DNA from: Microbacterium yannicii PS01
GTDB taxonomy: Bacteria > Actinomycetota > Actinomycetes > Actinomycetales > Microbacteriaceae
Direction: 5' to 3'
Length of the DNA stretch: 64,000 nt
NCBI RefSeq assembly: GCF_000304335.1
Contig: NZ_CAJF01000006.1
Coordinates: 1-64,000, forward strand
Below the pieces are notes generated by a model. That model was not told the origin of the DNA. It worked only from the letters and a program-made list of their open reading frames with translations, and made no database searches. A program made the translations under genes and the position numbers. Positions 1 to 13,973 of this stretch are shown piece by piece; position 1 is the stretch's first letter, and each line of letters starts with the position of its first letter.

Positions 1-933
1 CTCAGCGGTTTCGTGGTGCTCTTCGTCGGTTTGGCCTACCTGTTGCAGGTGCGCGTGCTGCGCAGCGGCCGCTATGCGACGATCACCGGCAAAGGAGCTC
101 GCTCCGGTGTCGCGAAGCTGGGTGGCTGGCGATGGCCGGTGCGCATCGCGGTGATGCTCTACGTCTTCATCTCGACGCTTCTGCCGATCATCGCGCTCGT
201 GCTGGTCTCGCTCAACGGGTTCTGGACCCCGGACATCGACTGGGGTTCGCTCAGCTTCGATGCCCTGCGTACCGCGGTGATCGACGACGCCCTCACCCGC
301 CAGGCACTCGTGAACAGCCTGGGCCTCGGCTTCGTCGGCGGTCTCCTCGGGATCCTCGGCGCGGCGATGGTGGCGCTGTACGTGCACCGCACGCGCACCG
401 CGTTCTCCCGGGGCATCGACGCCGCGATCAAGCTCCCTGCCGCGATCTCCAACATGGTCATCGCGGTCGGTGTGCTGCTGCTCTTCGCCGGGCCGCCCTT
501 CTACATGTCCGGCACGCTCGCGATCCTGCTGATCGGCTACCTCGCGCTGTATCTTCCGCAGGCTTCGATCGCAGCGGATGCCGCGGTGACGGGCGTCGGC
601 AAGGAGTTGCCCGAAGCATCGGCCGTGGCGGGCGCTTCGCCGGTGCGCACATTCTGGCGCGTGCTGCTGCCCCTGATGATTCCGGGGCTCGTCGCCGGGT
701 GGGCGCTGCTGTTCATACGTATGGTGGGTGACCTCACCGCGTCCGCGATCCTCGCCGGGACGTCCAATCCCGTCGTCGGTTTCCGCATCCTCGAGGTGTT
801 CAATGGAGGGTCGTACGCCCTGCTGGCAGCGCTTTCGACGGTGCTCGTGCTCATCACCGGCACGGTGCTCGTACTGGTCATGTGGTACACGCGCCGCAAG
901 TCCAGGTTCGGCATCTCGGCGAAGGTCGGCTGA
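1..933 (+). CDS. ABC transporter permease, Fe3+/FbpB type, 5' truncated
   Basis: Inner-membrane permease of a binding-protein-dependent importer. The frame is open from the first base, so the N-terminal part lies outside the window; the GTG at 13 is only an internal codon. The visible part has about seven hydrophobic segments. The region around residues 195-215 (PEASAVAGASPVRTFWRVLLP) fits the EAA loop that docks the ATPase, with the usual spaced Gly and the LP ending. This matches the second half of a double-length FbpB/ThiP-like permease for ferric iron, thiamine or phosphonate-type substrates. The stop overlaps the next ATG (TGATG), and the binding lipoprotein follows at 1802, so the three genes form one transport operon. 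Substrate unknown. The ATPase is presumably upstream. Confidence 0.85.
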   Translation, partial: LSGFVVLFVGLAYLLQVRVLRSGRYATITGKGARSGVAKLGGWRWPVRIAVMLYVFISTLLPIIALVLVSLNGFWTPDIDWGSLSFDALRTAVIDDALTRQALVNSLGLGFVGGLLGILGAAMVALYVHRTRTAFSRGIDAAIKLPAAISNMVIAVGVLLLFAGPPFYMSGTLAILLIGYLALYLPQASIAADAAVTGVGKELPEASAVAGASPVRTFWRVLLPLMIPGLVAGWALLFIRMVGDLTASAILAGTSNPVVGFRILEVFNGGSYALLAALSTVLVLITGTVLVLVMWYTRRKSRFGISAKVG

Positions 934-1805
934 TGAGACTCATCCTCCTGGGAACCAAGGGCGGCCCGCGCGTCTCACCGACGCACTGCGGGCCGGGGCA
1001 GCTCATCGTTGCGGGCGACGGCGTGATCCTCGTCGACTGCGGTCACGGCATCCCTCAGCAGCTCCTGCGCGCCGGCATCGCCCCGTCGGCGCTCACCGAC
1101 ATCGTCATCACCCACCACCACTCAGATCACAACGTGGCGCTCGGAACGGTTCTCATGGCGGCATGGGCGCACGGCCTGGAGCGGCCGCTCACGGTGCACG
1201 GACCGGCGCCGCTCGGTCGCATCGTCGCGGCGCATCTCGAGGCGAACGCGTACGACATCGGCATCCGGGTTCTCGACGAAGGCCGCCCAGACCTGCGCGA
1301 TCTCATTCGCGTGGCCGAAATCGACGGCGGTGACGAACGGATGCTGGGCGACGTGGTCATGCGTGCAGTCCGGGTGCGCCACGCCCCGGTGGAGCCGGCG
1401 CTCGGCTACCGGTTCGACGCGCCATCGGGATCCGTGGTCATCTCCGGCGACACCGGGCCGAGCCCCGAACTCATCGACCTCGCCCGCGGGGCGGACACCC
1501 TCGTTCACGAGGTCATCAACCCGGAACTCGTCCGGCCGTACGGCGAGGACGAGAGCAACGCGCGCTGGGAGGACCTGCACCGGCACCTGGTGGAGTCTCA
1601 CACCGCGGTGTCGGACGTCGGCGCGGTCGCGCAGGCCGCGGGCGTACGCCGGCTCGTGCTCAGCCACCTCGTGCCCGGCAACACCTTCGACTCCGTCGAC
1701 TGGCGGACGGTCGTCGAGCGGGACTTCGACGGCGAAGTCGTGCGAGGGGAAGACCTCATGGAGCTGTCCATAAGGCAGAACGCACCAAAGGAGATGCAGT
1801 CATGA
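933..1805 (+). CDS. MBL-fold metallo-hydrolase, RNase Z/arylsulfatase-like
   Basis: A 290-residue metallo-beta-lactamase-fold hydrolase with no signal peptide. Zn-ligand motifs visible are HHHSDHN near residue 67 (the HxHxDH signature), an SGDTG segment near 178 carrying the bridging Asp, and LSHLVP near 247 with the last His. The fold and motif order resemble the RNase Z/arylsulfatase branch, which includes many small-molecule phosphodiesterases, sulfatases and lactonases. The ATG overlaps the permease stop, and the gene's own stop overlaps the ATG of the binding protein, so it sits inside the importer operon. That suggests it hydrolyses the imported compound or a product of it, not tRNA. 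This is inference; the substrate cannot be read from the sequence. Confidence 0.85.
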   Translation: MRLILLGTKGGPRVSPTHCGPGQLIVAGDGVILVDCGHGIPQQLLRAGIAPSALTDIVITHHHSDHNVALGTVLMAAWAHGLERPLTVHGPAPLGRIVAAHLEANAYDIGIRVLDEGRPDLRDLIRVAEIDGGDERMLGDVVMRAVRVRHAPVEPALGYRFDAPSGSVVISGDTGPSPELIDLARGADTLVHEVINPELVRPYGEDESNARWEDLHRHLVESHTAVSDVGAVAQAAGVRRLVLSHLVPGNTFDSVDWRTVVERDFDGEVVRGEDLMELSIRQNAPKEMQS

Positions 1806-2830
1806 CGAAGAAACTCGCGGCGACCGCCGCAATCCTGGCCGCCGCGGCGCTGGTGCTCACCGGCTGCGGCGGTGCCACCGGCGACGATCGGCCCGCCGCA
1901 AGCTCGACGCCGGTGGAGGACCCCGAACTCCAGGCGCTCATCGAGGCGGCGCAGGAGGAAGGCACGCTCACCCTCTACGGCATCCCGGACGAGCGCGTCC
2001 TGCGCGCCGTGGCAGAGGACTTCACCGCGAAGTACGGTGTCGACGTCACCGTGCTGCGCCTGGTCTCGGCCGACCTGTCGCAGCGCTTCGCGGCCGAGGC
2101 GGATGCCGGAGCCGTGCAGGCCGACAACATCCTGCTGACCTATTCGCCGTTCTACGCCGAGGCCTTCGACAACGACTGGCTCACGCCGGTGACCGAGGCC
2201 GACATCCCGGACTTCGACGCGTATCCGGCCGACTACGTCGAAGAGGACGGCACCCCGATCGTCAGCATGGTGCCGACGCAGCTGGTGTACAACTCCGAGG
2301 CGTTGGACGAGGCCCCCGACAGCTGGGAGATCTACGCCGACCCCGAGTTCGAGGGCGAGCTGCTCTTCGCCGAGCCGGCGACGTCGCCGGCGAACCTGGC
2401 GTTCTGGTCGCTCATGATCGATGAGTACGGCGAGGAGTTCCTGAGCGACATCGCCGCCAACAACCCGACGTGGATGAACAGCGCCGTCAACACGACGCAG
2501 GGCGTCGCGGCGGGCGAAGGCTCGCTCGCCCACCCCGGCGTGTACGCGATCGTCGAGACGCTGAAGCAAGAGGGCGCCCCGGTCGAGGCGGCGCTGCTCG
2601 GGCCGACCACAGGACCCGAGATCGGACTCGGCATCTCGGCCGATGCGCCGCACCCGAACGCGGCGCGCCTGTTCGCGCACTACCTGCTGTCGGAGGAGGG
2701 GAACACCTTCCTCGCCGAGGAGTCCGGAGGCAGCTCGCCGTATGGCACCAACCTCGTCGAGGGATGGGTGCGTCCCGAGCCGGTGCCCGAGGACCGCGCG
2801 CAGCTCATCAACGAGCTGTTCGGTTTCTGA
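1802..2830 (+). CDS. Extracellular solute-binding lipoprotein, Fe3+/polyamine-type ABC importer
   Basis: A 342-residue substrate-binding protein. The N-terminus is a lipoprotein signal: MTKK, a hydrophobic Ala/Leu stretch, then a lipobox LTGC with Cys near residue 22. The mature part starts with an acidic helix and LIEAAQEEGTLTLYG, typical of the family 1/FbpA-like binding proteins (ferric iron, 2-aminoethylphosphonate, thiamine). A hinge-type VPTQLVYNSEAL segment lies near residue 160. I do not see the paired Tyr motif of ferric-binding FbpA, so iron is not assured. The ATG overlaps the hydrolase stop (ATGA). A 51-bp gap with an AGGAGA ribosome site leads into the P450 genes, so the importer and the oxygenases are probably co-transcribed. 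Confidence 0.88.
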   Translation: MTKKLAATAAILAAAALVLTGCGGATGDDRPAASSTPVEDPELQALIEAAQEEGTLTLYGIPDERVLRAVAEDFTAKYGVDVTVLRLVSADLSQRFAAEADAGAVQADNILLTYSPFYAEAFDNDWLTPVTEADIPDFDAYPADYVEEDGTPIVSMVPTQLVYNSEALDEAPDSWEIYADPEFEGELLFAEPATSPANLAFWSLMIDEYGEEFLSDIAANNPTWMNSAVNTTQGVAAGEGSLAHPGVYAIVETLKQEGAPVEAALLGPTTGPEIGLGISADAPHPNAARLFAHYLLSEEGNTFLAEESGGSSPYGTNLVEGWVRPEPVPEDRAQLINELFGF

Positions 2831-2881
2831 CCGCGATTCCGGGGCGCCCAGGGCGTCCCGGAATGCACCCAGAGGAGAACC

Positions 2882-4123
2882 ATGTCGCAAGGACGATGCC
2901 CTTTCGGTTTCGACGATCCGGAGGCGCTCGCGCGTCGGCGGACGGACCACGATTTCGACCCCGTGCCGGATGAGGCCGAGACCTTCACCAGCGCTCACGA
3001 GGAGTTCGCGCGTCTGCGAAACGATCGGCCGGTCGCGCGCAGCCAGGAGTACGACGGATTCTGGGCGCTTCTCGGCTACGACGAGGTGCTCACCGCCATC
3101 ACCGACATCGACCGGTTCACCACCACGACGCAGAACGCGATTCCCAAATTCGCCTTCACCGGAGTGCGCCCGCCGCTGCACCTGGATCCGCCCGAGCACA
3201 CCTCGTACCGACGCGTCATCAACCGAGCCTTCACCCCGCCGCGCATGCGCGAGCTCGAGCCGCGCGTCCGGGCGGCCGCGGTGGAGCTTCTCGATCCGCT
3301 CATCGCGGGCGGATGGGCCGACATCTGCCGCGAGTACGCCCACCGGTTCCCGGCGTTCGTCTTCGCCGACTTCTTCAACCTCGACGTCGAGACGTCGGAG
3401 CTCATCAAGGCCGTGACGGGCCGGTACGTCGATGCCATCCAGGTGCTCGATCACGAGACGGTGCGCGGTCTCAGCGGCCGTCTCTACGAGATCGCGCAGT
3501 CGATCATCGATTCACGAGCCGTGCAGCCTCTCGATCCTGAGGAAGACCTCACCACGGCGCTCATGCAGGCGGAGCATGACGGTGAGCCGCTGCCGGCAGC
3601 GATGGTCCTCGGTTGCGTGAGGCAGCTCATCGTCACAGGGATGGTCGCGCCCAGCGTGTTCACGGGGAACATGTTCGTGCACCTCGCCCGCGATCCACAG
3701 CTGCAGGACTATCTGCGCGAGCAACCCGAGAAGATCCCCGACGCGGTCGAGGAGTTCCTGCGTCTGTACTCCCCGTACCGCGGCATGGCGCGCACCGCTC
3801 GCGAGGACGTCGAGCTCGGCGGTGAGCTCATCCGCGAAGGCGACCCCGTCGCGCTCGTCTACACCTCGGCCAACCGTGACGAGCGGGTGTTCCCGGACGG
3901 CGAGTCGTTCATCCTCGATCGTCCGAACATCGCCAAGCACATCTCGTTCGGCCGCGGCACCCACAGCTGCCCGGGCGCACCCCTCGCGCGCATGATGATG
4001 AGGATCACACTGGAGGAGGTGCTCGCGCGCAGCGCCTCGTTCCACGAGGCGGGTGAGCCCGAGATGGCCATCTGGGCCGAGTGGGGTACGCGCTCGGTGC
4101 CGCTGGACTTCGTACGGGCGTGA
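2882..4123 (+). CDS. Cytochrome P450, first of a tandem pair, atypical I-helix
   Basis: A 413-residue soluble bacterial P450. The heme loop is FGRGTHSCPG with the thiolate Cys at 363. The K-helix ExxR is E291-R294, and the FxPERF-like region reads FPDGESFILDRPN. The start is fixed by AGGAGAACC directly before the ATG. The striking feature is the I-helix: where P450s normally carry A/G-G-x-D/E-T-T/S, this protein has TGMVAPS (residues 252-258), so the acid-alcohol pair is Val255-Ala256. The paralogue 14 bp downstream has the same change. No ferredoxin or reductase gene is visible. The pair probably oxidises, or otherwise transforms, the compound taken up by the upstream importer. P450 identity is certain from motifs; the CYP family and substrate are unknown. 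Confidence 0.95.
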   Translation: MSQGRCPFGFDDPEALARRRTDHDFDPVPDEAETFTSAHEEFARLRNDRPVARSQEYDGFWALLGYDEVLTAITDIDRFTTTTQNAIPKFAFTGVRPPLHLDPPEHTSYRRVINRAFTPPRMRELEPRVRAAAVELLDPLIAGGWADICREYAHRFPAFVFADFFNLDVETSELIKAVTGRYVDAIQVLDHETVRGLSGRLYEIAQSIIDSRAVQPLDPEEDLTTALMQAEHDGEPLPAAMVLGCVRQLIVTGMVAPSVFTGNMFVHLARDPQLQDYLREQPEKIPDAVEEFLRLYSPYRGMARTAREDVELGGELIREGDPVALVYTSANRDERVFPDGESFILDRPNIAKHISFGRGTHSCPGAPLARMMMRITLEEVLARSASFHEAGEPEMAIWAEWGTRSVPLDFVRA

Positions 4124-4137
4124 GGGGCGTGACAGGT

Positions 4138-5331
4138 ATGACCGAGGCATCCGCGTTGCCTCCTGACGATTTCGACGCGGCTGCGACGGAGACGTTCGAC
4201 AGCCCGCACGACACCTATCGCGAGCTGCGAGAACGGTGCCCGGTCGCCCACTCGTCCGCGTACGGGGGATTCTGGGCGCTGACACGGTTCGACGATGTCG
4301 AGCGTGCCGCGCGCGACTCCGAGACATACATCTCATCTGTGCGAGCCGTCGTCCCGAGCGATCCGCGCGGCATCCGTCGACCGCCTCTCAACTTCGATGC
4401 GCCGGCGCACTCACCGTTCCGGCGGGCACTGGACCGAACCCTGCACCGCTCACGGCTGGAGCGCCTCGAGCCCAGACTGCGTCTGCACGCGGAGCGTGAG
4501 TTCGGACGATTCCTCGCCGATGATGGTGGCGACATCTGCGTCGGCTTCGGCACGCTCTACCCCGCTTACACCGCCGCCGAGTGGCTCAATCTCGATCCGG
4601 CTGACGTTCCACGACTGGCCGAGACGTCGTCGATGTGGGTGGATGCCTGGCGTCGCCAGGACGGCGCCCTCGTCACGGCGAAGAGCGAGGCGATGTACGA
4701 CATGGCCCGTGCACTCGTCGCCGACCGCACCGCGCGACCGCGATCGATCGACGAGGACCCGGCGAGCTCGCTTCTCGCGGAGGAGTACGAGGGCGCACCG
4801 CTCGATCAGGAGCTCGTCGTGGGGGCACTGCGTCAATCCCTCGTCGTAGGGCTCGTTGCGCCGCCCATCCTTCTCGGCGGGATCTGCGTGCACCTCGCCC
4901 GGCACCCTGAACTGCATCGCGAACTGCGCGACGACCCCTCGCTCATCCCCGCAGCGCTCGAGGAGTTCGTGCGCCTCTACACCCCGTACCGGGGCTTCGC
5001 GCGCACCGTCTCGGAGCCGGTGACCCTGCATGGGCGAACGATCGAGCCCGGCGAACCCGTCACCCTCGTTTACGCCTCAGCGAATCGTGACGAGCGCGTC
5101 TTCGATGAGCCCGATGACTTCGTCCTCGGTCGGCCGAACATCGCCCGACACCTGGGTTTCGGACGTGGTCGGCACAGGTGCATCGGCATGGCGCTCGCGC
5201 GGATCAGCCTGCGGATCGCGTTGGAGCAGATCGTCACTCGCACGCGAAGGCTCGAGATCGATGGGCCGATCGAGAGCACACGGATGCCGGAGGTCGGCGC
5301 GCAGTCTGTGCCGCTGCGCGTCCACCTCTGA
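4138..5331 (+). CDS. Cytochrome P450, second of a tandem pair, atypical I-helix
   Basis: A 397-residue P450, clearly a paralogue of the preceding gene: both share PYRG-ART after the K-helix, a VY-SANRDERVF segment and FGRG in the heme loop. Heme Cys348 lies in FGRGRHRCIG, and ExxR is E276-R279. The I-helix again lacks the acid-alcohol pair: VGLVAPP at 237-243, with Val240-Ala241 in the D/E-T positions. I chose the ATG at 4138; a GTG at 4129 is an alternative three codons upstream. The gene lies 14 bp after the first P450 and is surely co-transcribed. It converges on the PaaX-type regulator with a 26-bp gap. Whether the two proteins act in sequence or as partners cannot be told from sequence. 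Confidence 0.95.
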   Translation: MTEASALPPDDFDAAATETFDSPHDTYRELRERCPVAHSSAYGGFWALTRFDDVERAARDSETYISSVRAVVPSDPRGIRRPPLNFDAPAHSPFRRALDRTLHRSRLERLEPRLRLHAEREFGRFLADDGGDICVGFGTLYPAYTAAEWLNLDPADVPRLAETSSMWVDAWRRQDGALVTAKSEAMYDMARALVADRTARPRSIDEDPASSLLAEEYEGAPLDQELVVGALRQSLVVGLVAPPILLGGICVHLARHPELHRELRDDPSLIPAALEEFVRLYTPYRGFARTVSEPVTLHGRTIEPGEPVTLVYASANRDERVFDEPDDFVLGRPNIARHLGFGRGRHRCIGMALARISLRIALEQIVTRTRRLEIDGPIESTRMPEVGAQSVPLRVHL

Positions 5332-5357
5332 CGCAGCGGCCCCGTGCGGACGACGAG

Positions 5358-6278
5358 TCAGCGCTCGCCGTCACCCGAGACGTGGTGCGAGGTGAGAGCA
5401 GCGAGCGACGCGTCGTACCGCCCGACGATCTCGGAGAACCGCCGCTCGGCCGGGGCGCCCAGCGAGTCATAGATCGCGAGGAAGACCGCGCGCGCGCTGT
5501 CACGGGGCCAGTCGGCGGGAAGCATCTCGCGAGGCAGCTCGGGGTCGGTGAACCGGAACCCGAGCCAGCGCCCCATGACTCGGGTGCGGAGGGTGAGCGC
5601 ATGGGCGGGATCGAGCCGACCGCCGACCGCGTCGTCGACGTGCCCGGCGAAGTCCGCGATGAACAGGCGATACTCGGCCTCCAGGGCGTGCAGCTCGAAC
5701 GCCTCGCTCACATCAGGCGAGCGGCCGTCGCGCGGCACGAAGTCGGATCGCATCACCGTGGCGGTGCCCACCGAAAGGCGCTTCAGAAGACCCACCGCCT
5801 CTTCGGCGTAGTCGTGAGGCGTGATCCACACGGCCTCCTGCAGCAGGGCGAAACCCAGCTCCCGCAGGCCCATGCGGAGATGCCTGCGCACGTCACGCAG
5901 CTCCTCGGGAACCGAGAACACCACGACCGTCCAGCGGCCATCCCACGGCGGGTAGGCGAGTCCGAAGTTCATCGCGCGCTTCAGTCGCGTCTCCGTCGCT
6001 TCGGCGGTGCTCTGCGGGCGTGCGTAGAAGGTCGACCGGCCGTGCTTCGACGCGACCAGCATGCCGCGCGCCGTCAGCCTCCGGATCGCCTGGCGTGCCG
6101 AACTCTCGGTGGTTCCGAATTCGGACAGCAGGTCGACCAGGGCCGCCGAGGGCACCGCCTCGGTGTTACCCCACCAGTAGTCGCCGAGCAACGTCGCCAG
6201 CAGATGCTGCGGGTCGGTGCCGGTGGCTGAACGCGGGATGCCGAAGGTGGTCCCCGGTCGCGTGCCCATCTGCGGCAT
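5358..6278 (-). CDS. PaaX-family transcriptional repressor
   Basis: A 306-residue regulator of the PaaX type, which repress aromatic catabolic operons and respond to CoA-thioester ligands (family knowledge). The N-terminal winged helix reads LLGDYWWG...ALVDLLSEFGTTESSARQAIRRL, followed by the GMLVASKHGRSTFYA wing. The middle domain carries WDGRWTVVVFSVPEELRDVRRHLR, a hallmark of PaaX central domains, and the C-terminal helical domain follows. The ATG at 6278 is preferred over one at 6290 because GGGAGGAACC sits just before it and the upstream codon would overlap that ribosome site. The gene converges on the two P450 genes, so it is the obvious candidate regulator of the importer-hydrolase-P450 cluster. 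The operator was not identified. Confidence 0.9.
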   Translation of the reverse strand: MPQMGTRPGTTFGIPRSATGTDPQHLLATLLGDYWWGNTEAVPSAALVDLLSEFGTTESSARQAIRRLTARGMLVASKHGRSTFYARPQSTAEATETRLKRAMNFGLAYPPWDGRWTVVVFSVPEELRDVRRHLRMGLRELGFALLQEAVWITPHDYAEEAVGLLKRLSVGTATVMRSDFVPRDGRSPDVSEAFELHALEAEYRLFIADFAGHVDDAVGGRLDPAHALTLRTRVMGRWLGFRFTDPELPREMLPADWPRDSARAVFLAIYDSLGAPAERRFSEIVGRYDASLAALTSHHVSGDGER

Positions 6279-6382
6279 GGTTCCTCCCATCGCGCCAGTG
6301 AGTCAACTGTGACAGATGCTCGGTCAGTGCCAGGTGCGTGGCGACACACGCCCGACGACCATCGCAGCCTCGCGGGACCGGA

Positions 6383-8437
6383 CTAGCGGACGGTGACGGT
6401 GATCGGCCGCGATGACGTCTCCCCGGCGTCATTGACGAAGACGGCGACGTACTCGTAACTGCCCGGCGCTCTGTCCGTCACGCTGGAGGTCGCCCGCTGC
6501 GCGCCCGGAGTGGCCGCCGACAGCGTCTGCTCGTCGATCAGTTCGCCGTTCTCAAAGAGGCGGTAGTCGGTGGCGTTCGTTCCCCACCAGAGGTCGGTGG
6601 TGAGGGTGAAGTCGCCATCGCGGTCGCGGTTGTCGTGCGACAGGACGATCTTCCCGGGTGCCGCATCGGTCACGCGTACGGTCACCGAGCCTGTTTCGGT
6701 GGCTCCGGCGCCGTTGGAGACCACGCCCGTGTAGACATACGTCCCGTCGACCCGGCCGGAGAGCTCCACCGTGGCTGACTGTGCTCCCGGCGTGTTCGGC
6801 CGCAGTGTTCGCGTCGCGATCAGCTCACCATTCTCGTAGAGCCGGAACACCGAGCCGTTGACGCCGTGCCACAGGTTCATGGTGACCGTGTGCGTACCGT
6901 CGTGCAGACCGTCGGCCCATCCGCTGTCGGTCGACAACCGAGCCCGCGCGGGTGCGGTCGTCGTTTCGTCCGCCGGCACATACGTTCCCCAGTTGGTGAA
7001 GTCCCACGTTCGCAGCGCCGGCGGTAGGTCGCCGAACGGGATGTACTTCCCGACGCCGCCGCCGCCGAGCAGAGCCGAGTCGATCTCACCGCTCTCGGCG
7101 AGCGCAGCGACGCGAGCGTTCATCGCCTGAGGTGACACATCGGGCCACGAGCCGGAATCGAGGCGGGCTTCGAGAGCACGGAAGGCCACCAGCATCTCGC
7201 CGAACGACTGGCCGCCGTGACCTGGACGCTCGATCAGAAGGGTCCGCACGTGCGTTCCTGCCCGCCCCGCCGCTTCGAAGGTGCGCAGATAGGCCTCGTC
7301 CAGCGGAGCCGGGTCGGCGGAGTCACCCAGTGTCTTGACCGTCATCACGGGGCTTCCGGTGCCGTCATAGGTTCCGATGTCTTCGACCGCTGCGACGGCT
7401 TCCGGGTCGGCGCTGTAGCGTTCGGCTCCGGCGAGGAGATCGAGGTCGGCATCCAGGTCGAGCCCGGCGTGCTCGTACCACCAGCGCACTCGGTCCGCGT
7501 CGCCCGATCGCTCAAGGAGGTCGCGGTAGTCCACGCCGTGATTCCACACCACGGGGCCGCCGGCCATCACCTCGATCTCCTTGTGGACGAACTGCGGGTT
7601 GCCGAAGGCGAATGCGCCGGCGATGAGCTGTCCCTGCGTCAGGTAGTCGTCCTGCGCGGGCGGCTCCGAGCCCGAGGGGAAATCGGTGGCTTGTTCGAAG
7701 GCCGCAGCGAGCACGAGTCGTGCCATGCCCTGATCACTTGCGCGGGCCTCGGTGACGAGCGCGTCGAGTTTGACGTTCTGGTCGTAGCTCGGCCCATATG
7801 TCGCCCCCGGCGGGATGTCAGGCAGGTTGTTGATCGCGAGCCCCGCGTCCGGGTTCACCAGCTCCTGCAGCGCCCATACCGCGTCGGCTTTGCCGAGCCA
7901 GCTGGCGAGAACACCGGCACCACCTCCGGCTCCGGCCAGGGCGCCATCGAAGACATCCGGTCGGTACTGCGCCGCCATGCGGGCGACGAAGCCACCGCGG
8001 GAGTTGCCCCACGCGATCGTGCGCGTCGGCTGGCTCTCCGAGCCTGTATCGGCGATGGCCTCCGTGAGGAGATCCCGCGTGGTGACCAGGTTTTCCACGT
8101 AGTCCTTGATCTCGTACGCGGTCTCGTTCTGGGTCCGCTGGTTACCCCCGATGGCGTAGCCCTTGCTCAAGAAGTAGTCGCGGCGCGCCACGTTCCACGA
8201 GTTGAAGTCAAGGTCGAGGATCAGTGTTCCGTTCCACTCGGCCGGGCGGATCGCCTCGTAGACCACCTGTGCGGGCGTTCCCTCGTGCAGCACTCCAGCC
8301 ACGCGGACGTCACTGTCAGCTGCAGAAGCGGGCACCGGCAGGCTCAGCAGCGAGCCGATGAGGGCGACCGCCCCGATAGCCGCGGCGATGGGCCGCCGTG
8401 AGCGCCTGAGGGGCGCTTCGAGAGCAGGAGCGGACAT
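6383..8437 (-). CDS. Secreted alpha/beta hydrolase with two C-terminal beta-sandwich repeats
   Basis: A 684-residue exported protein. The N-terminus is an Arg-rich Sec-type signal peptide ending around PVPASAADS (residue 40). An alpha/beta hydrolase core follows, with nucleophile elbow GNSRGG (Ser near 144) and a likely catalytic His in RPGHGGQSF near 345. The last about 190 residues are two copies of a roughly 90-residue domain with the motif LWWGTNATDYRLFENG. The same domain ends the GH32 protein at 14268 and is common in actinobacterial secreted chitinases. The start at 8437 has GAGGAGG seven bases upstream; the longer open frame adds only an unlikely leader. The substrate is unknown; a carbohydrate ester is a guess based on the shared C-terminal modules. 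Confidence 0.85.
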   Translation of the reverse strand: MSAPALEAPLRRSRRPIAAAIGAVALIGSLLSLPVPASAADSDVRVAGVLHEGTPAQVVYEAIRPAEWNGTLILDLDFNSWNVARRDYFLSKGYAIGGNQRTQNETAYEIKDYVENLVTTRDLLTEAIADTGSESQPTRTIAWGNSRGGFVARMAAQYRPDVFDGALAGAGGGAGVLASWLGKADAVWALQELVNPDAGLAINNLPDIPPGATYGPSYDQNVKLDALVTEARASDQGMARLVLAAAFEQATDFPSGSEPPAQDDYLTQGQLIAGAFAFGNPQFVHKEIEVMAGGPVVWNHGVDYRDLLERSGDADRVRWWYEHAGLDLDADLDLLAGAERYSADPEAVAAVEDIGTYDGTGSPVMTVKTLGDSADPAPLDEAYLRTFEAAGRAGTHVRTLLIERPGHGGQSFGEMLVAFRALEARLDSGSWPDVSPQAMNARVAALAESGEIDSALLGGGGVGKYIPFGDLPPALRTWDFTNWGTYVPADETTTAPARARLSTDSGWADGLHDGTHTVTMNLWHGVNGSVFRLYENGELIATRTLRPNTPGAQSATVELSGRVDGTYVYTGVVSNGAGATETGSVTVRVTDAAPGKIVLSHDNRDRDGDFTLTTDLWWGTNATDYRLFENGELIDEQTLSAATPGAQRATSSVTDRAPGSYEYVAVFVNDAGETSSRPITVTVR

Positions 8438-12135: not shown

Positions 12136-13836
12136 ATGGAGGATCCGACGCACCCGGTGATCGTCGTCACCGAGAAGACGCCGAACTCGGCGGGGCCGGA
12201 CGTCGCGGAGGTCCTTCGGCGTCGCTACGGCGCCGACTATGCCGTAGTCCGCGCGGATGCCGATCCGCACGCGGCGCTGGCAGCGCTCGCATCGGAAGGA
12301 CGCCCGGTCGCGCTGGTGCTCGCGGACGACGACCGGCCCGGCCCAGCGGGCGAGACGGTCTTCGCCGACGCCCGGCGACTGTTCCCCGACGCGCGACGCG
12401 GGCTGATGATGACCTGGGGAACGTGGGCGGACCCCGAGACCGTGCAGCGGGTTCTCGAGCTGATGTCGCAGCTGCGGATCGACTACTACGTGGTGCGTCC
12501 GCAGGACCCGGCCGACGAGGACTTCCATCGCATCGTCACCGAGCTGCTGCGGGAGTGGCGCCACGCCGCCGGCGGACGCGCGGGATACACGGTGGTCGGC
12601 GAAGACCACGCCCCGCGAACGCACGTGCTCGAACAGCTTCTTTCTCGCGCGGGCGTGTCGGTGGCGCGCGTGGAGCCGGACTCGGCCGCCGGCGTGCGGG
12701 TGCTGGCGGAGGCGGGCGTCGCCTACACGGGAGCGCCGGTCGTCCGCACCGCCGCCGGTCGGCTGCTCGTCGATCCCGACGACGCCGAGATCGCGGCGTC
12801 ACGAGGGCACGGCACGGCCCTCCCGGACGGGCCGGTCGATGTCGCGATCGTCGGTGCGGGGCCGGGTGGCCTGGCGGCGGCGGTCTATGCCGCGTCGGAG
12901 GGACTGTCGACGCTCGTGCTCGAGCGCGAGTCGCTCGGGGGGCAGGCGGGCGGCAGCTCGCTGATCCGCAACTATCTGGGCTTCCCCCGCGGCGTCAGCG
13001 GCGTGGAGCTGGCAGACCGCGCGTATCAGCAGGCGTGGGTCTTCGGCGCGCGCTTCTGTCTGGCCCGGGCCGTGACGGGCCTCGAGATCGATCATGGATT
13101 CGTGGTGCACATGGGGGATGAGCGGGTCGCGGCAGGGGCGGTCGTGCTGGCCACGGGGGTGTCATATCGCAAGCTGCGGGTGCCGGCGCTCGAGCGCTTC
13201 GTCGGCGCCTCGGTGTTCTACGGCGCGTCATCGGTCGAGGCGAAGGCTCAGCGCGGACGCACGGTGTTCGTGATCGGCGGCGGCAACTCCGCAGGACAGG
13301 CGGCGCTCCATCTGGCTCGCTACGCGGCATCCGTCGCCCTCCTCGTTCGTGGGCCCTCGCTCGCCGCGAGCATGTCGTCGTACCTGGTCGAACAGCTCAC
13401 GGCACTCGGGGTCGAGATCGTGACGGAGAGCCGGGTGGTCGACGCGCACGCGGATATCGAAGGCGACCGGCTGGCGCAGATCGAGATCGAGCATCTCCGC
13501 ACCGGCGAGCGTCGACGCGTCGCCTGCGAGGGGCTGTTCATCACGATCGGCTCGCAGCCGCACACCGGCTGGCTCCCCCCGCAGGTGCTGCGCGATCGGT
13601 GGGGCTTCCTCTTCACCGGTGCGTCCGAGGCCGACGAGGACGCGCCGGAGCCGTGGGCCGGGCGCGCCGTGCCCGAGCCCCTGGAGACATCCGTGCCCGG
13701 GCTCTACGCCGTCGGCGACTCCCGCCGCAGCTCGGTGAAGCGCGTCGCGTCGGCGGTGGGCGAAGGCTCGGTGGTCGTCTCGTCCGTGCACCGGCACCTC
13801 AGTGCAAGAGGCGAGCGGATGCCGCGGACCCGGTGA
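12136..13836 (+). CDS. Receiver-like domain fused to thioredoxin-reductase-like flavoprotein
   Basis: A 566-residue cytoplasmic protein in two parts. Residues 1-130 look like a response-regulator receiver fold (VIVVTEKTP, ALVLADDDRPG with acidic cluster), and a thioredoxin-like stretch (YTVVGEDHAPRTHVLEQLL) follows to about 225. Residues 235-560 form an FAD/NAD(P)H domain: VAIVGAGPGGLAAAVYAASE (FAD), ESLGGQAGGSSLIRNYLGFP, VIGGGNSAGQAALHLA (NADPH) and GLYAVGDSR. The redox Cys-x-x-Cys of true thioredoxin reductases is missing: the corresponding segment reads VFYGASS. The architecture is a known actinobacterial arrangement usually annotated fused response regulator/thioredoxin reductase. It probably passes electrons to an unknown acceptor, not to thioredoxin. 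The ATG is preceded by GAGGGG. Confidence 0.87.
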   Translation: MEDPTHPVIVVTEKTPNSAGPDVAEVLRRRYGADYAVVRADADPHAALAALASEGRPVALVLADDDRPGPAGETVFADARRLFPDARRGLMMTWGTWADPETVQRVLELMSQLRIDYYVVRPQDPADEDFHRIVTELLREWRHAAGGRAGYTVVGEDHAPRTHVLEQLLSRAGVSVARVEPDSAAGVRVLAEAGVAYTGAPVVRTAAGRLLVDPDDAEIAASRGHGTALPDGPVDVAIVGAGPGGLAAAVYAASEGLSTLVLERESLGGQAGGSSLIRNYLGFPRGVSGVELADRAYQQAWVFGARFCLARAVTGLEIDHGFVVHMGDERVAAGAVVLATGVSYRKLRVPALERFVGASVFYGASSVEAKAQRGRTVFVIGGGNSAGQAALHLARYAASVALLVRGPSLAASMSSYLVEQLTALGVEIVTESRVVDAHADIEGDRLAQIEIEHLRTGERRRVACEGLFITIGSQPHTGWLPPQVLRDRWGFLFTGASEADEDAPEPWAGRAVPEPLETSVPGLYAVGDSRRSSVKRVASAVGEGSVVVSSVHRHLSARGERMPRTR

Positions 13837-13882: not shown

Positions 13883-13973
13883 GGTGACGTGTCCGAGCGG
13901 CCGAAGGTGCAACTCTCGAAAAGTTGTGTAGGGTAACCCCCTACCGTGGGTTCAAATCCCACCGTCACCGCCA
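13883..13973 (+). tRNA. tRNA-Ser (anticodon CGA)
   Basis: A 91-nt class II tRNA with encoded CCA. The acceptor stem GGTGACG (13883-13889) pairs with CGTCACC (13963-13969), the discriminator is G, then CCA at 13971-13973. The anticodon arm is CAACT-CTCGAAA-AGTTG, giving anticodon CGA, which reads UCG. The long variable arm (AGGG...CCCT) is the serine hallmark, and the T-arm is GTGGG-TTCAAAT-CCCAC. A TACACT at 13870-13875, eight bases upstream, is a plausible -10 box for an almost leaderless transcript. tRNA-Ser genes are common integration sites, but no integrase or repeated tRNA 3' end is present in this window. Confidence 0.96.

Follow-up and report, generated by a model that had tools for sequence, protein, structure and literature searches.

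The stretch analysed here, hereafter the window, comprises the first 64,000 nucleotides of contig NZ_CAJF01000006.1 (contig C6) of Microbacterium yannicii PS01 and begins at base 1 of that contig. Near this end, two cytochrome P450 genes lie in tandem on the forward strand, between an importer and a PaaX-family repressor. P450 A (413 aa) runs from its ATG at 2882 to the TGA at 4123 (2882..4123), and P450 B (397 aa, 41% identity to A) occupies 4138..5331. The ATG at 4138, 14 nt past the stop of A, is the most likely start of B; the open reading frame list gives a longer version from a GTG at 4081. Both proteins match the Pfam p450 profile, A with 86 bits and B with 63 bits (cut-off 22.8). The heme-thiolate loop reads FGRGTHSCPG in A (residues 356-365, 3947..3976) and FGRGRHRCIG in B (residues 341-350, 5158..5187), and the ExxR motif is EFLR and EFVR, respectively.

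The I-helix is where both proteins depart from canonical O2-activating P450s. In place of (A/G)Gx(D/E)T(T/S), A carries TGMVAPS (residues 252-258, 3635..3655) and B carries VGLVAPP (residues 237-243, 4846..4866), within the helix sequences VRQLIVTGMVAPSVFTGNM (A) and LRQSLVVGLVAPPILLGGI (B). In alignments to solved P450s (4rm4; 2uuq, the latter with a one-residue gap), the Val-Ala of A and B sits opposite the acid-Thr pair. Neither residues 243-264 of A nor the corresponding stretch of B contains any Asp or Glu, which excludes an acid-Thr pair in a shifted position. The AlphaFold2 model of A shows an ordinary P450 fold (predicted local distance difference test score, pLDDT, 90.2) with an unbroken I-helix from 239 to 270, in which the block 251-260 has a pLDDT of 84. 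An annotation or frame error is ruled out by the open frames and by 240 listed homologues sharing the motif, and so is a chance loss in a single strain. The initial annotation, which described an intact heme Cys and ExxR in both neighbours together with Val for the conserved acid and Ala for the Thr, is borne out in each of these points, and the displaced pair that would have overturned it is absent. The acid-alcohol pair is thus missing from both A and B.

The replacement extends well beyond this strain. TGMVAP was found in 121 of 121 A rows (the query and the 120 best listed of 2672 hits) and VG[ML]VAP in 121 of 121 B rows (the query and the 120 best listed of 2205 hits). The source genome encodes a third relative on another contig (G000:C17; L022 10297-11565; here and below, L numbers denote loci, G genomes and C contigs), which has 42% identity to A, reads AGMGAP and comes with its own phosphonate-binding-type importer and its own PaaX. 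In the paralogous group around it, Ala takes the place of the Thr in all 117 rows and the acid is replaced by Gly or Ala; Pro follows the Ala in 115 rows and is missing from the other two. These paralogue rows, each longer than 340 aa, are 115 of the 120 listed (best of 987 hits) plus the copies from the source genome and G025; dropping everything of 340 aa or less took out five paralogue rows (of 122) and a single B row (of 120). Members from Litchfieldia (Bacillota) and a Hyphomonadaceae metagenome-assembled genome (MAG) read TGMVAPS, so that the motif is conserved at 54% identity in a Bacillota genome, and five sphingomonad members at 47-50% identity read VGMVAPM (5 of the 7 sphingomonad plasmid hits were read).

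In a maximum-likelihood tree of 62 rows, a branch with support 100/99 separates all 52 clade rows from the 10 outgroup rows, several of the outgroup branches being long. The heme Cys loop and ExxR are invariant across a 60-row alignment. Among 35 background P450 rows none lacks both I-helix residues, two lack the acid alone and three the Thr alone; 27 of these rows are actinobacterial, taken from loci of the Pfam search and biased to high scores, and 8 are others, one of 28 background loci having yielded no P450 row. Outside this set, a CYP152-like P450 of the source genome seemingly lacks both residues (Arg-Pro, by eye). The clade is rare: counting the source genome, A occurs in 3 of 396 phylum genomes and 2 of 58 relatives, and B in 2 of 396 order genomes; in the phylum and order draws, scoring was confined to the four best candidates of each genome. 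Neither a characterised clade member nor a paper describing the combination emerged from searches of the open-licence full-text literature, in which the motif itself was not a search term. A and B belong to one rare, scattered P450 clade whose examined members lack the I-helix acid and Thr. Since Val-Ala, or the corresponding loss in the paralogues, is a feature of all A, B and paralogue rows examined, it is fair to suppose an unusual route of O2 activation or unusual chemistry, as had been proposed from the two sequences.

The clade also has charged residues of its own. Arg96, Arg247-Gln248, Tyr299-Arg300 and Glu400 (A numbering) are conserved within it and mostly absent from the outgroups, and Arg96, Arg247, Tyr299, Arg300 and Glu400 are predicted to occupy substrate-facing positions. 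Arg96 and Arg247-Gln248 match the places of the CYP199 carboxylate clamp, by sequence spacing only; Arg247-Gln248, and perhaps Arg96, would hold a substrate carboxylate in the manner of Arg243-Ser244 and Arg92 in CYP199A4.

Upstream of the P450 genes, the forward strand encodes an ATP-binding cassette (ABC) importer permease (BPD_transp_1 by Pfam/NCBIfam profiles; 1..933), truncated by the contig start. It is homologous to part of a double permease of about 590 aa in relatives and has 78% identity to L010 4137-5918. It is followed by a metallo-beta-lactamase-fold hydrolase of an RNase Z-like family (933..1805, forward strand; under the NCBIfam cut-offs), which has a 55% identical neighbour in L010, and by an extracellular solute-binding protein matching the SBP_bac_8 profile (1802..2830, forward strand), relatives of which share a stretch with P450 A or B in L006, L010, L011 and L013. 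Convergent with B on the reverse strand lies the PaaX-family repressor (5358..6290), with three PaaX Pfam domains over cut-off and 134.5 bits to TIGR02277, under that model's cut-off of 264.55. Next to it, also on the reverse strand, is an S9-like alpha/beta hydrolase, secreted by eye (6383..8293; 21.3 bits against a Pfam cut-off of 22.6), with relatives in L008, L013, L022, L024, L057 and L059. Profiles thus confirm the importer, as permease plus binding protein, the hydrolase and the PaaX repressor first noted beside the P450s. The sole tRNA detected in the window is a tRNA-Ser(CGA) at 13883-13973.

We surveyed the setting of the clade at 17 loci from 15 genomes (L006 and L007 come from one MAG, the window and L022 from one genome), counting neighbours at an identity of at least 35%, or looser for coenzyme A (CoA)-module genes. 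An importer binding protein or permease was present at 13 of the 17 loci, PaaX at 10, the S9-like hydrolase at 7, BzdN/BzdO-like genes at 7, a class III CoA-transferase at 6, a CapA-like gene at 4 and one-carbon genes at 3. Two clade members occurred at 9 of 17 loci, the second in L057 and L058 not being a B orthologue. The Litchfieldia stretch (L016) held none of the surveyed setting genes. The importers belong to several families (polyamine/2-aminoethylphosphonate-like, phosphonate-like and branched-chain-like). In two Salinibacterium genomes, an SDR-domain protein and an APH(6)-like kinase lie beside the importer (L010 316-2682 and L006 1315-3656), the kinase of L010 scoring under the NCBIfam cut-offs.

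Several relatives adjoin genes for aromatic acids, as scans of those neighbours that looked aromatic by eye revealed. LigM is encoded in L013 (869 against a cut-off of 580), and a LigM-like gene in L022 is truncated by the contig end (550 against 580); MTHFR and PurU-like genes accompany it in both. L012 has a 4-oxalomesaconate tautomerase and a CHA aldolase, L009 BoxB and BoxC, and L057 PobA, PcaC and PcaH, while L058 encodes an Hca-like dioxygenase with its beta subunit over the subfamily cut-off (155.8 against 145) and its alpha subunit under it. Around the N. aromaticivorans member, the annotation includes catechol and beta-ketoadipate genes. The Novosphingobium ES2-1 member has CapA, a tannase/feruloyl-esterase-family hydrolase and MmgE/PrpD nearby, and the Croceicoccus member CapA, a CoA-transferase and a 2-hydroxyacyl-CoA dehydratase-family gene. 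Because these loci were picked, no rate can be derived from them.

Unexpectedly, the P450 clade tracks a CoA-transferase/benzoyl-CoA-reductase-like module. PaaX, P450 B, CoA-transferase and two BzdN/BzdO-like genes follow one another in this order in L009 and L012, with A divergent. The source genome carries the CoA-transferase gene, together with those for the two subunits and a CapA-like gene, at the end of contig C11 (L027 9119-11394), a different contig from that of the window. BzdO-like genes are mostly accompanied by a gene for another subunit of this kind and by one for a class III CoA-transferase: in 15 stretches with a BzdO-like gene (L027, L009, L010, L012, L014, L015, L029, L057, L058 and L090-L095), several of them cut, the transferase was present in 14 and a CapA-like gene in 10. 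Amino-acid-type ABC genes join the module in several stretches. A BzdO-like protein was present in 12 of the 12 clade genomes tested, Litchfieldia included; these were a selection that did not include the genomes of L008, L010, L015 and the sphingomonads, and in two of them only the third type of P450 relative was found. Of the 396 genomes in the phylum draw, a BzdO-like protein was found in exactly the three that have the P450 clade and in 0 of the 393 others (the P450 and BzdO draws are taken to be the same 396 genomes, as 23 listed rows agree). Under independence the chance of this co-occurrence is 1e-7, a rough figure given the relatedness of the genomes and the scoring of no more than the four best candidates in each.

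Both coupled subunits show weak but significant homology to class I benzoyl-CoA reductases, namely MbdO/BzdO and BzdN. All 10 actinobacterial BzdO-like copies checked, that of the source genome included, lack Cys at two positions where MbdO, the solved relative, has it; an alphaproteobacterial copy also has Cys at both. The two cysteines, which presumably bind an Fe-S cluster, are retained in 3 of 3 other copies (Litchfieldia, Hyphomonadaceae and Croceicoccus), and a third position is Cys in only two of those three. No activase gene was recognised in the stretches read around the BzdN/BzdO-like genes. The hosts are aerobic.

For redox partners, the window was read up to 14.5 kb. None was found among the seven cluster proteins scanned (1-8293), in which respect the initial annotation, according to which no redox partner was visible, stands. 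Further out, about 6.8 kb from B, lies a Pyr_redox_2 flavoprotein (12136-13833, 566 aa), which has some 230 additional residues at its N-terminus. In the whole source genome, two full-length FprA-type reductases were found but neither a Fer4_13 nor a Fer4_15 ferredoxin, the search having not extended to 2Fe-2S ferredoxins. In Nocardioides (L014 9275-10615), an FprA-type ferredoxin reductase gene (by eye) lies 93 bp from P450 A, its product being 58% identical to two proteins of the source genome; it may be a coincidental neighbour. Elsewhere in the source genome, a 984-aa fusion (L023 7398-10349, G000:C20) combines a P450 with an FprA-like reductase and, by eye, a flavodoxin. In the I-helix of its P450 part, AASDAP, the acid is retained and Ala stands for Thr. 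The fusion is apparently self-sufficient, in an XplB/XplA-like arrangement, and XplA is absent among the 60 PDB rows listed for it. By eye, the CYP152-like P450 mentioned above (L005 652-1953, G000:C6:70373-71674; Pfam p450 36.9 bits) carries Arg-Pro in its I-helix region, and its Cys loop is divergent; if the Arg-Pro is right, all five P450s found in the source genome lack the I-helix Thr.

That relatives adjoin aromatic-acid genes points to A and B oxidising an imported plant-type acid by an unusual route. Our preferred reading, to which we give a probability of roughly 40%, is that they oxidise an imported, carboxylate-anchored aromatic compound with O2, the protons coming from the substrate or from the side chains of Tyr299, Arg300 or Glu400. 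The importer would feed a carboxylate-bearing aromatic compound to A and B, which would hydroxylate or O-demethylate it with O2 and with electrons drawn from elsewhere. The iron-oxygen species would receive its proton from Tyr299, positioned above the heme, or from a group of the substrate itself. A and B would act on successive or alternative positions, and the CoA module would handle the acid next. Several points weigh against this reading. Most families lacking both residues are not known as monooxygenases. The cluster lacks a redox partner, and the genome a Fer4_13 or Fer4_15 ferredoxin, as described above. The importer types are mixed and not specific to aromatic acids, and no aromatic-acid gene was identified at L006-L008, L010, L011, L014-L016, L024 or L059, where not every neighbour was scanned. 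The carboxylate clamp is deduced from residue spacing, and the basal relative L043 deviates both at the Ala (HVGP) and at the PYR motif (PNTG). Finally, Ala or Val at the Thr position is reported to turn P450cam into an H2O2-producing oxidase.

Alternatively, A and B might rearrange, dehydrate or reduce their substrate without Compound I, in which case nothing would preserve a proton relay. The loss of both residues in all listed A, B and paralogue rows examined and the coupling to a reductase-like CoA module agree with such chemistry, whereas some of the linked ring-cleavage and demethylation genes suit oxidation; the FprA-type gene (by eye) beside the L014 member is compatible with either reading. 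We regard non-oxygenase chemistry as rather unlikely. Slightly less probable still are H2O2-dependent peroxygenases, in which a substrate carboxylate would act as the general acid, as it does in CYP152, though held by Arg residues located elsewhere in the protein. The I-helix without acid or Thr, several conserved Arg, a substrate that is probably a carboxylic acid and the lack of redox partners would fit, and carboxylate-assisted peroxide use is known in CYP152 (PMC5818669). However, A and B have Val-Ala-Pro instead of the Arg-Pro of the CYP152 I-helix, and their Cys loop is the standard FGxGxHxCxG, in contrast to the divergent one of the CYP152-like protein in the source genome. The use of peroxide suggested in the initial annotation is therefore not supported in its CYP152 form, the defining Arg-Pro, as given in the same source, being absent.

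Loss of the pair might also simply be tolerated by ordinary monooxygenases that draw protons from bulk water. The predicted fold of A, the Cys loop and ExxR are ordinary, and P450eryF is described as working without the Thr; yet the conserved Ala-Pro, together with newly conserved charges, argues for a rebuilt site rather than tolerance, and we find this explanation doubtful. The suggestion that one of the pair is a non-catalytic structural or allosteric partner draws on the tandem genes 14 nt apart, the two clade members at 9 of 17 loci and the existence of P450-derived activators, whose model TIGR04515 gives about 100 bits, under its cut-off of 343. Among the rows compared, however, heme Cys, ExxR and clade residues are retained in both proteins, and G025 and G517 each have a single clade member at E 1e-60, from which it follows that a clade protein can act alone. 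A purely structural partner is thus not supported and seems very improbable.

The observation is thus confirmed, and in a stronger form than the one first given, while its interpretation is borne out in part. O2 splitting by P450s is ordinarily explained by the acid-alcohol pair, and a natural clade that is without it in all examined rows and has its own conserved charges offers a direct test of possible stand-ins. The tight coupling to the CoA-transferase/benzoyl-CoA-reductase-like module gives a concrete, testable pathway and suggests an undescribed use of the benzoyl-CoA-reductase-like fold in aerobes. More tentatively, the two enzyme types, both without their textbook catalytic residues, might form a new aerobic catabolic module that degrades a plant-type aromatic acid by steps without precedent in either family. 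Such a module would comprise P450s without the O2-activating pair and actinobacterial benzoyl-CoA-reductase-like heterodimers without the Fe-S cysteines, joined by a class III CoA-transferase and in many cases by a CapA-like protein.

Among known systems, the coupled subunits resemble class I benzoyl-CoA reductases (BzdN/BzdO, MbdO) in that both are homologous and their genes mostly paired; they differ in that the actinobacterial BzdO-like copies checked lack the two MbdO-aligned cysteines, whose Fe-S role is presumed. The P450 comparisons draw in part on PMC11854964, PMC5818669, PMC8081977, PMC9112060, PMC9049603 and PMC10750395. With CYP152 (P450BSbeta, OleT), A and B share the absence of the acid-alcohol pair, and CYP152 acts on carboxylate substrates (PMC5818669). 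Membership is ruled out, since CYP152 has Arg-Pro in place of acid-Thr and A and B have Val-Ala-Pro. XplA is likewise found in Actinobacteria and lacks the pair. It differs in being fused to a flavodoxin and in acting reductively on RDX, while A (413 aa) and B (397 aa) are single Pfam domains, which rules out an XplA-type fusion. Scores of 95.8 and 101.3 bits rule out P450 glycosyltransferase activators (TIGR04515). In GcoA-type aromatic O-demethylases a cognate reductase gene lies beside the P450; none is encoded among the seven proteins within 1-8293. P450nor, named in the initial annotation as an example of pair loss, is only half apt, as it keeps the Thr.

In CYP199A4/CYP199A2, as in the clade, one Arg precedes the Thr position by nine residues and another lies in the B-C region; an aromatic-acid setting is also shared. 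CYP199A4 keeps the acid and Thr252. A simulation study has the two Arg of CYP199A4 contact the substrate carboxylate, and a T252A variant is mentioned elsewhere in the literature. A and B differ from CYP199A4 in Val-Ala-Pro, in Gln for Ser244 and in the additional Arg300 and Glu400. P450eryF (CYP107A1) keeps the acidic residue, and its substrate hydroxyl protonates the iron-oxygen species. It acts on a macrolide and, with 132 bits to A by phmmer, is no close relative; it is reported to lack the conserved Thr, and substrate-assisted proton transfer is the model proposed here for A and B.

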